Source: a virus
DNA length: 45,961 nt
Direction: 5' to 3' (one strand)
IMG/VR virus record: IMGVR_UViG_3300046837_000052
Location: 1 to 45,961 of that record
The notes under the pieces are model-generated. The model saw only the letters and a program-made list of their open reading frames with translations. It searched no databases and was not told the origin of the DNA. Shown piece after piece: positions 39,639-45,961 of the stretch; within the stretch, counting starts at the first letter, position 1, and every line of letters begins with the position of its first letter. A program made the position numbers and the translations under genes.

Positions 39639-39695
39639 ACATACCCTATGTCACCCACCAAGATCAAGAAGCAGAGGCAAAAGGAGAGGTCAAGA

Positions 39696-40970
39696 GTGTC
39701 CAAACCCAAAGAAGAATCCATGGCCGTCCAGGTCATGCCTGAAGTCACCCATACCATGCCCGCCCTGGACCACGAGGCCATGCAGGCCATGTTCATGGCC
39801 AAGGTCAAGGAGACCGTCGAAGAGGTCATCGGCCCTCAGGCTCCCTCCGAGCGCATCACCCGTGAAGCCGAGATCTTCGCCAGGGAGACTCGCTCCATGA
39901 TCCTGACCGCCGTGGAAGGCGCGTATCAGGACGCCAACGAGAAGCTGAACCAGGCAGCCACGAAACGTGCCCATGCCTTCAAGGCCCTGACCAAGAAAGT
40001 CGCCACCGCCCAGATCGCCGCGCTCCTCGAAGAAGCCAAGGATAAGCGCATGTTCATGGGCAGCGTCGAGGACCGTGCCTTCGTCACGGAAGCAATCCGC
40101 GATGTCGTCAAGGGCCTCTGCCCCGAGGACCTCGGCCACATCTCCAGGCTCCCTGGACCCAGCACGATCACACCGGATCCGCTCTGGGATGCGTCCCTCT
40201 CCCCCGGTGTCACAGACTTCCTGGCGGTGTGGAAGAGACATGGACCTCGCTCCTGCATCGTCACCGGCCCGTCTGGCTGCGGCAAGACGCACCCCATCCG
40301 CCAATGGGCTCGCGGACTGGGCCTGCAAGTCTGGATCATCCAAGGGGGAGAGGGATGCGCCACGAGGCGTGAAGCGGTCGGGGGATACACCCTGAACCAA
40401 CGCGAGGGAGCCTCCGTCATGGAGCGACAGGTCGGCATCGCAGCCTCCGCCGCCATCCAGGGTGGACTGCTCCTGATCGACGAGTACGACAAGATCGACC
40501 CCTTCGTCCTCGGCCAGCTGAACGACCTGATCGACAACGGAGGGCTCATGATGCCCTGGGGAGAGTTCATCGTCCCCCATCAGGACTTCCGCGTCGCCAT
40601 GACAGGTAACGGCCTGTCGGACGACTCAGGGGCCTACGTCACGCACCAGACCTCCTCCGAACTCCCCATGCGGTGCTGGGGCTGCCACGCACACTGGCCC
40701 AATCAGGAAACCGAGGCTCAGTGGCTCGTCAAGGCCGGTGCGGACGAAACCACCGCTGCCCGTGTCGCCAGCACGTCTTCGGCAATTCGTGCAACTTCCG
40801 TCCGCCCCGCCCCCAGCCTGCGCACGTCGCTGTTCGTTATCAACGCGCTCAAGGCCATGTCGTGGAAGGACGCCTGGGTGTCCTCTTACCTGTACCAATT
40901 CAACAAGGACGCCGCGAAGGAGGCCGCAGATGTCATCGGAACAGCAGAAGGCAAGAAGAAAAAGGCTTGA
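39696..40970 (+). CDS. MoxR/CobS-like AAA+ ATPase
   Basis: This is a 424-residue ATPase. The N-terminal 170 residues are helical and unassigned. Walker A GPSGCGKT is at 191-198 and Walker B LLLIDEYDK near 258-266 with Asp262/Glu263. A sensor-like V-A-M-T-G-N-G-L then follows, so it should hydrolyse ATP. The core is of the MoxR/CobS type, whose members work with a VWA protein to remodel partner proteins or insert metal ions. GTG 39696 is chosen over ATG 39648 because AAGGAGAGG sits nine bases before it. The VWA gene overlaps its end by 41 bases, fitting a two-component machine. Confidence 0.72.
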   Translation: MSKPKEESMAVQVMPEVTHTMPALDHEAMQAMFMAKVKETVEEVIGPQAPSERITREAEIFARETRSMILTAVEGAYQDANEKLNQAATKRAHAFKALTKKVATAQIAALLEEAKDKRMFMGSVEDRAFVTEAIRDVVKGLCPEDLGHISRLPGPSTITPDPLWDASLSPGVTDFLAVWKRHGPRSCIVTGPSGCGKTHPIRQWARGLGLQVWIIQGGEGCATRREAVGGYTLNQREGASVMERQVGIAASAAIQGGLLLIDEYDKIDPFVLGQLNDLIDNGGLMMPWGEFIVPHQDFRVAMTGNGLSDDSGAYVTHQTSSELPMRCWGCHAHWPNQETEAQWLVKAGADETTAARVASTSSAIRATSVRPAPSLRTSLFVINALKAMSWKDAWVSSYLYQFNKDAAKEAADVIGTAEGKKKKA

Positions 40971-42402
40971 TGCCTGCGAGAAGATCAGGTCTGTGCTTCT
41001 TCTGGAAGAACACCACTCCAGGACCATCGCCATGGGGATCGCCGCTCGACTCATGGAGATCTCCCACGTCGCCCCGACGGAGGCTTGCAGCAACACTCCA
41101 GCCTCCAAGCTCTCTGGCGAAGCGGCCCAGCTGACCGGGGCCATGCACTCGATCGTCAACTCAGCTGGACCCACGCTGAAGCAGGCCGCAAGGGACGCGG
41201 GGATGTCCCTGAGCCAACTGAACCTCGACCTGAGAAATTCCTACTACGCCCTGAGCGCAGCTTCAATTCGGCCTGTCGATGCCGTCACGTCCATGCGGGC
41301 CGTTCTGAAGTTCGTCCTTGACCTGGAACGTGATCGACCCAAGGGGCCAGCCGGCCCAGCCGCTCCGCAACAGGCCGAAGGTGAGCCCCAGTTCACCATG
41401 GGCCAGGGCAAGATGTCGTCCGGCATGCCCGTCGAAGGCGCGGGCAATTACAGAGACTGGACCATCATCTCGGAGGAGATCTTCGATTCCAGGTTCGCCT
41501 CGTGGTGGGACCAGCGCGTCAGCAAGAGGACGATGAACGTCAATGCCAATGCCCAGCTGACCCGAGCATTGACAGCAACGAAGCGTTCACGGGTCGTCCG
41601 ACACCCCGACGGTGACAGCCTGGACTTCGAGGCCCTTCCTGATCTTGGTGCAAGGGTTCCTGACCCCAACCCCTTCGCCAAGGCCATGAACAAAGCGGTG
41701 ACGCCGAATCTTCTCATCCTGATCGACCAGTCCGGGTCGATGTCTACTTCAGGCGGCGGGGACCCATGGTCGCGGATGCAGCATGCCAATGCAGCCGCGA
41801 CCATGATCGCCAAGTCCGCTGTCCAGGCTCGATGCCCGTTTGCCGTCGTCCCTTACGAGGAGGACGCACACTACGCTGCGGCAGTAACCTGGAAGCCGGG
41901 CAAGCCTGTCCCGAAGTTCCCGATTGCGTTCGATGCCCGTGGAGGCAACGACCTCATGGGGGCCACTCTCCAGGCGGCGCACTGGTACTTCAAAGGTCCG
42001 CGAGACAGAGAGAGGCGCATCTGCATCTCGATCTGCGACGGCGACATGACTGCAACTGGGTACATGCGTGGCTACGACAGGCACTCGCACATCAAGTCGA
42101 AGCGTAGACCCTACAACAGTCAAATCGGGAAGAGCCCTGGATGGATTATCAATTCCGCCGTCGAGGACATGCGTGATCTGCCCATGATGCTCGGAGTCGA
42201 GGCACACGCAATCTCAGTGGCGGTCAGTCAGACCCACTGGGAGAGGTGCGTTAGCGCCGGCCGCGACCCGCATAGACCCGAAGACAATCTCTTCGGCCAC
42301 ATCATTGGAGCATTCGCGTCGGTCAGGAATGTGGAGACGGCAGAGCGCCTGCCGCTGGAGATGTCCAGGCTGGCGGCAGAGATCCTTCAACCAACGAGAT
42401 AG
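40930..42402 (+). CDS. CobT-like VWA-domain protein
   Basis: This is a 490-residue protein starting at ATG 40930 with AAGGAGG seven bases upstream, inside the AAA+ gene. The first 250 residues are helical. Residues about 255-400 form a VWA domain. The MIDAS motif DQSGS is at 266-270, the second loop has GGNDL (338-342) where a Thr is usual, and the third has ICDGD (368-372). An Asn in place of the metal-coordinating Thr may change ion binding. AAA+/VWA pairs occur as CobS/CobT and MoxR-VWA systems. The phage role is unknown; candidates are a virion-assembly chaperone, a host-protein remodeller or a counter-defence device. Confidence 0.7.
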   Translation: MSSEQQKARRKRLDACEKIRSVLLLEEHHSRTIAMGIAARLMEISHVAPTEACSNTPASKLSGEAAQLTGAMHSIVNSAGPTLKQAARDAGMSLSQLNLDLRNSYYALSAASIRPVDAVTSMRAVLKFVLDLERDRPKGPAGPAAPQQAEGEPQFTMGQGKMSSGMPVEGAGNYRDWTIISEEIFDSRFASWWDQRVSKRTMNVNANAQLTRALTATKRSRVVRHPDGDSLDFEALPDLGARVPDPNPFAKAMNKAVTPNLLILIDQSGSMSTSGGGDPWSRMQHANAAATMIAKSAVQARCPFAVVPYEEDAHYAAAVTWKPGKPVPKFPIAFDARGGNDLMGATLQAAHWYFKGPRDRERRICISICDGDMTATGYMRGYDRHSHIKSKRRPYNSQIGKSPGWIINSAVEDMRDLPMMLGVEAHAISVAVSQTHWERCVSAGRDPHRPEDNLFGHIIGAFASVRNVETAERLPLEMSRLAAEILQPTR

Positions 42403-45669: not shown

Positions 45670-45721
45670 TCCTGATTGGTGCTAGAGTGGTGTCAGTCCG
45701 ACTGGGCTGGCCCACTCCTAC

Positions 45722-45765
45722 GCCCCACGGTTGGGCCATCCCCGACATGTCAGACGCCGTGGGGC
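45722..45765 (+). other. hairpin in non-coding region before tRNA
   Basis: GCCCCACGG (45722-45730) and CCGTGGGGC (45757-45765) are perfectly complementary with a 26-base loop. Together with the following element it forms most of a 178-base gene-free stretch (45670-45847) ahead of the tRNA. No promoter of consensus quality is visible just before it; the RNA is probably part of the upstream transcript. Confidence 0.45.
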
Positions 45766-45776
45766 ACTTCGAAAAG

Positions 45777-45840
45777 CCGAGGATCCGTGAAACGGGGGAC
45801 AGCCTGGGGAGGCTGCACGTCGTGGAGCACAGGTCCTCGG
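45777..45840 (+). ncRNA. 64-nt cloverleaf-like RNA element (tentative)
   Basis: A perfect 7-bp closing stem, CCGAGGA (45777-45783) with TCCTCGG (45834-45840), encloses two or three internal hairpins: CCGT/ACGG, CAGCC/GGCTG with a six-base loop, and a weak GTG/CAC. The closing stem has tRNA acceptor length, but there is no TpsiC-type GTTCGA sequence and no clear anticodon loop. It may be a degenerate or unusual tRNA-like RNA, or a processing element for the tRNA that starts seven bases later. Confidence 0.35.
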
Positions 45841-45847
45841 CCCCTAT

Positions 45848-45920
45848 CGCCGGGTGGAGCAGCAGGCAGCTCGCCAGCCTCATAAGCTGGAGGTCGCTGG
45901 TTCGAATCCAGCCCCGGCTA
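45848..45920 (+). tRNA. tRNA-Met (CAT), initiator-like
   Basis: This is a 73-nt cloverleaf. The acceptor stem is 45848-45854 with 45913-45919, where only the first pair (C1 with U72) is mismatched, as initiator tRNAs mismatch 1:72. The D-arm is GAGC/GCTC with A11:U24, the anticodon loop CTCATAA has anticodon CAT, the variable loop is AGGTC and the T-arm GCTGG-TTCGAAT-CCAGC. The body is close to bacterial tRNA-fMet. The anticodon stem is CCAGC/GCTGG and lacks the three consecutive G:C pairs typical of initiators. CCA is not encoded. An elongator Met or a lysidine-modified Ile tRNA is less likely given the acceptor mismatch. Confidence 0.85.
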
Positions 45921-45961
45921 CACGTCACCGTAGCTCAAGAACAAGAGCGCGGCTGGTGGGC

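Follow-up and report, generated by a model that had tools for sequence, protein, structure and literature searches.

Bacterial initiator transfer RNAs (tRNAs) carry three almost invariant G:C pairs in the anticodon stem, at positions 29:41, 30:40 and 31:39. Here we describe a tRNA gene at positions 45848–45920 (+) of the viral IMG/VR record IMGVR_UViG_3300046837_000052 (the window; the whole stretch of 45,961 nucleotides) that combines the body of an initiator with a different stem. It is a real initiator-type phage tRNA with the variant pairs A29:U41, G30:C40 and C31:G39 (written AU/GC/CG, other stems in the same order), and it belongs to a phage-enriched class. Judging from sequence comparisons, we think it somewhat probable that the gene encodes a functional initiator.

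In the ribosome, G30-C40 is held by A1339 of 16S ribosomal RNA in a type I A-minor contact; the contact of G1338 with 29-41 is of type II and involves chiefly the 2'-OH of nucleotide 41; and initiation in E. coli falls about 20-fold in vivo when G30-C40 is swapped to C-G (PMC11497404). The inactive '3GC mutant' (UA/CG/AU) has every one of the three pairs altered and is still charged and formylated (PMC10486304). This mutant and the M1 mutant of E. coli tRNA-fMet resemble the window tRNA in joining an initiator body to an altered anticodon stem (PMC10486304, PMC11497404), but both change G30:C40, which the window tRNA keeps.

Among natural tRNAs, an actinomycete tRNA-fMet (Streptomyces record L384) is identical to the window tRNA at 59 of 74 aligned positions and shares C1xU72, A11:U24, the CUCAUAA loop and the AGGUC variable loop. 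The host copy has GC/GC/GC and an encoded CCA, whereas the window tRNA has AU/GC/CG, no CCA, C4:G69 and a D-loop one base shorter. Alphaproteobacterial initiators (AU/GC/GC) share A29:U41 and G30:C40 but leave 31:39 as G:C. The tRNA-Met genes of Streptomyces phages Wakanda and Muntaha (the latter known from its match alone) both match at 82.9%. Wakanda's shares C1xU72, A11:U24 and the whole CCAGC-CUCAUAA-GCUGG arm; it lies in a large tRNA array and encodes CCA, whereas the window tRNA is solitary and does not.

The gene is complete (Rfam RF00005, 61.7 bits, E 4e-11) and is called tRNA-Met(CAT) by ARAGORN; with both resources it is the sole tRNA in the window. Read by hand, its arms follow one another as in Table 1, with UG between acceptor stem and D-arm and a single G between D-arm and anticodon arm. 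Bacterial tRNA-fMet has a mismatch or weak pair at 1:72, here C1xU72, and the formylation elements G2:C71, C3:G70 and A11:U24 (as given by PMC7949028) are all present. Elongator tRNA-Met and tRNA-Ile2 have a paired 1:72 and Y11:R24, neither of which is found. A sequence-only reading had already pointed to the C1/U72 mismatch, A11:U24, an initiator-like D-arm and variable loop and an unencoded CCA, and each of these is borne out, with CAC following A73. It had also described the three G:C pairs as absent, which is true of two: 29:41 is now A:U and 31:39 is flipped to C:G, while the middle pair, G30:C40, is intact. Because only one of the three pairs that define canonical tRNA-fMet has its standard form, we file the tRNA as an initiator-like variant and not as a standard tRNA-fMet. 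With A11:U24 and the CUCAUAA loop, its stem matches the definition of the phage AU/GC/CG initiator class.

Overall sequence also places the tRNA closer to initiators than to elongators. It scores 61.0 bits on an initiator profile and 31.7 on an elongator-type CAT profile, the latter trained on a small set (11 sequences, Met and Ile2 types mixed). Both profiles were built from CAT tRNAs in the fetched viral loci, and the initiator training set contained no AU/GC/CG stem. The initiator-minus-elongator score has a median of +38.9 bits for held-out initiators and is +34.2 bits for AU/GC/CG tRNAs; held-out elongators score -12.6 bits, every one negative. Other CAT tRNAs in the same loci mostly have Y11:R24 or other 11:24 pairs. 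The scores support the earlier view of a phage-encoded initiator-like tRNA. Its further description as a hybrid lacking the three G:C pairs was overstated, as the A1339-contacting pair is kept and the stem recurs in many phages.

To survey stems in viruses, a broad initiator pattern was run over viral contigs and 121 tRNAs were examined (the first viral sample). AU/GC/GC was the most frequent stem (52), followed by GC/GC/GC (38), UA/GC/GC (15), AU/GC/CG (7) and others (9); 30:40 was G:C in 118. Many of the AU/GC/GC copies have exactly the sequence of alphaproteobacterial host initiators; they may be host genes at prophage edges. The AU/GC/CG pattern itself occurs in at least 119 viral contigs. 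Among the matches listed are 85 distinct tRNAs; their T-stems all have five pairs, and they are therefore not decaying copies. The 31:39 pair is changed in at least 120 viral contigs and the 30:40 pair in 31 (complete scan). In a minority of phage initiator-type tRNAs (e.g. loci L303, L304, L308 and L312) the G30:C40 pair itself is flipped to C30:G40, the swap noted above for its roughly 20-fold effect on initiation in E. coli. An exact search with the window's own D-arm and anticodon arm matched no other viral contig. Isolated phages with AU/GC/CG include Wakanda (Streptomyces), RHph_TM3_3_3 (Rhizobium), NV1.1.1 (Sinorhizobium) and phiWae14 (Aeromonas). AU/GC/U.G is found in Mycobacterium phage Aegeus, Vibrio phages and Synechococcus phage S-CRM01, and GC/GC/GC is kept in Pseudomonas phages D3, Y6 and Haboob. 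In several phages or phage-like loci (L237, L241, L246, L247, L248, L258, L259 and L268), no more than about 2.5 kb separates the initiator-type tRNA from the terminase large subunit gene.

Across all 84,980 cellular genomes the AU/GC/CG pattern occurs at 15 places. At least six of them (L237, L241, L245, L246, L247 and L248) have terminase or portal genes nearby, and eight of the 15 genomes also have an ordinary initiator by a strict pattern. The broad initiator pattern matched 167 of 299 Pseudomonadota genomes, and the matches listed, the genome chosen as centre aside, are GC/GC/GC or AU/GC/GC. A 31:39 pair other than G:C is found in 3 of 399 Pseudomonadota: the chosen centre and two GC/GC/CG cases (2 of 398 without the centre). 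For Bacillota, 197 of 300 genomes matched; in those listed the 5' strand reads GGG or AGG, with U39 (G:U at 31:39) in two cases, setting aside the chosen centre G009, which also has a phage-like copy. In actinomycete records (Streptomyces plasmid L384 and Nonomuraea L383), the initiator copies, found with a Streptomyces query that matched at 98.7%, combine C1xU72 with GC/GC/GC. AU/GC/CG thus marks a class found in many unrelated phages and almost never in bacteria, probably a working, phage-specific version of the initiator.

Phage tRNAs of other specificities served as a control for constraint. The p-values are indicative only, since the compared sequences share ancestry: a strong 1:72 pair (G:C or C:G) occurs in 6 of 242 phage CAT/A11:U24 tRNAs and in 486 of 707 non-CAT phage tRNAs (p=1e-83), C29:G41 in 0 of 242 versus 100 of 700 (p=3e-14), and G30:C40 in the 118 of 121 noted above versus 502 of 700 (p=2e-12). 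C31:G39 is present in 221 of the 700 non-CAT tRNAs, which come from the same viral loci. A11:U24 and the anticodon loop were fixed by the search patterns and give no independent evidence. Avoidance of a strong 1:72 pair and absence of C29:G41 are clearer signs of initiator-specific constraint than retention of G30:C40, which is significant without being dramatic.

The tRNA is likely to be functional as an initiator, a view that builds on its anatomy, its initiator class, the recurrence of the stem in unrelated phages, its near absence from cells and the intact helices, all of which are observed. The transcript would be processed and given its CCA by the host enzyme. Host MetRS would charge it through the CAU anticodon, host Fmt would formylate it through C1xU72, G2:C71, C3:G70 and A11:U24, and IF2 would accompany it into the peptidyl (P) site. 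A1339 would still find its type I contact in the kept G30:C40 pair, G1338 should tolerate A:U at 29:41 because it touches this pair mainly through the ribose of nucleotide 41, and 31:39 lies outside the G1338/A1339 contact. Given these contacts, and given that the 3GC mutant changes all three pairs, an AU/GC/CG stem should still initiate. The phage tRNA could then add to host tRNA-fMet, or take its place, when initiator runs short or is damaged in the course of infection. The sequence-only reading had proposed that it could favour the genome's many GTG/TTG starts. This idea was set aside: the longest open reading frames of 25 likely genes start with 19 ATG, 6 GTG and 0 TTG, so no special need for GTG/TTG initiation is indicated.

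Several points weigh against a functional initiator. A review holds that G29:C41 and G30:C40 are both required for efficient initiation (PMC11231383), and no measured effect of A29:U41 plus C31:G39 on initiation was found in the accessible literature. Retention of G30:C40 is weak evidence alone, because 72% of phage elongators also have this pair; drift is possible. A scan for sigma70-type promoters near the gene found none. The window stands alone as a singleton at a contig end, lacking close relatives in which conservation of the gene could be seen.

Drift is the core of one alternative that we regard as possible but distinctly less probable than a functional initiator. A supplementary phage initiator need not be optimal, and its stem could relax toward ordinary tRNA stems while the stronger constraints (at 1:72, 29:41 not C:G, and mostly 30:40) remain. 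Each of the three stem pairs does vary among phages, and the 7 of 121 AU/GC/CG stems in the first viral sample are close to the elongator expectation (0.23 x 0.72 x 0.32, about 5%). However, the helices are intact, C29:G41 does not occur at all and G30:C40 is found in excess, and the last two observations imply that constraint remains.

It is also conceivable, at a similarly tentative level, that the stem evades host nucleases that cut initiator tRNA, letting the phage copy outlast cleavage of tRNA-fMet in an abortive response. This would add a reason for a functional initiator rather than contradict one. Shigella and Salmonella VapC cleave tRNA-fMet between A38 and C39 (PMC4105405), VapCs target anticodon stem-loops by sequence and structure (PMC7180214), and anticodon-loop changes in mycobacteriophage tRNAs are predicted to confer nuclease resistance (PMC10264068). 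In the window tRNA the C31:G39 flip and A29:U41 alter nucleotides beside the A38/C39 bond, and nucleotide 39, 3' of that bond, is G. The contrast at 31:39 between viral contigs and Pseudomonadota genomes (at least 120 versus 2 of 398) points the same way. Set against this, the CUCAUAA loop itself is unaltered, and G31:C39 predominates among phage initiators of the first sample. Survival of host tRNA cleavage, which the sequence-only reading had also raised, is a plausible property of the window tRNA.

We consider it improbable that the tRNA interferes with the host, being charged, formylated and bound by IF2 like the 3GC mutant and, through poor initiation, disturbing host initiation or 30S maturation during takeover; that mutant also alters the G30:C40 kept here, and a block on its own initiation would hardly benefit a phage. 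That the tRNA is an elongator (tRNA-Met or tRNA-Ile2) with some features of an initiator is very improbable and was set aside: the stem pairs are elongator-like and CAU is common to all three tRNA types, but the elongator-type profile is 29 bits worse, as far as such profiles can tell, C1xU72 and A11:U24 are present, and Wakanda has a separate elongator-type CAT tRNA (U11:A24, G1:U72) beside its AU/GC/CG initiator. Equally remote is that the gene is a decaying copy, or belongs to the host and borders a prophage at its attachment site. This reading was suggested by the position at the extreme end of the record and set aside because the gene is complete with compensated pairs, its stem is not seen in sampled cellular initiators and no integrase was recognised among the proteins examined.

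No close relatives of the phage were found through its ParB-like protein, TerL or DnaB, and tblastn with a 620-aa protein gave no match. Its annealing protein shares 53% identity with mycobacteriophage proteins across part of the sequence, and TerL and DnaB have weak actinophage matches. From these and from C1xU72, the form in actinomycete initiator records, we tentatively infer an actinobacterial host. The stretch of 178 bases that separates the ParB-like gene from the tRNA (45670–45847) folds into three strong hairpins (minimum free energy -91.2 kcal/mol); the last (about 45776–45841; z -3.8 versus shuffles) ends 6 bases before the tRNA. This region had no Rfam family above threshold and no match among isolated phages. 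A terminator scan found nothing. Beyond the tRNA, the last 40 bases (45921–45961; ACGTCACCGTAGCTCAAGAACAAGAGC...) resemble the 5' half of a second tRNA (TAGCTC...GAGC), without the usual D-loop GG and cut by the record end. At 39648–42402, the reading frame after a MoxR/CobS-like ATPase (phrog_249) has a von Willebrand-like DQSGS motif; the two resemble cobaltochelatase-like pairs of some phages.

Table 1. Parts of the initiator-type tRNA gene in the window
Feature	Position	Strand	Basis
Initiator-type tRNA gene, anticodon CAU, nucleotides 1–73	45848..45920	+	sequence, ARAGORN, Rfam, profiles
Acceptor stem 5' strand CGCCGGG: C1 (mismatched to U72), G2:C71, C3:G70	45848..45854	+	sequence
D-arm GAGC-AGCAGGCA-GCUC; A11:U24 is the initiator/formylation element	45857..45872	+	sequence
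Anticodon arm CCAGC-CUCAUAA-GCUGG; 29:41/30:40/31:39 AU/GC/CG, canonical GC/GC/GC	45874..45890	+	sequence, census
Anticodon CAU	45881..45883	+	sequence, ARAGORN
Variable loop AGGUC and T-arm GCUGG-UUCGAAU-CCAGC	45891..45912	+	sequence
Acceptor 3' strand CCCGGCU, A73, then CAC; CCA tail not encoded	45913..45923	+	sequence

No description of the phage-enriched AU/GC/CG initiator class was found in the searchable literature, which excludes most subscription papers. More speculatively, a widespread class of phage initiators may break the '3GC' rule in a pattern, mostly keeping the A1339-contacting pair and changing those on either side. Selection would then have favoured tRNAs that initiate and also either escape host nucleases directed at initiator tRNA or shift the choice of start site. 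Natural initiators with two pairs changed and the A1339-gripped pair kept would be natural experiments on P-site selection. Such a class would also test whether phage initiator tRNAs serve to withstand tRNA-cutting defences.
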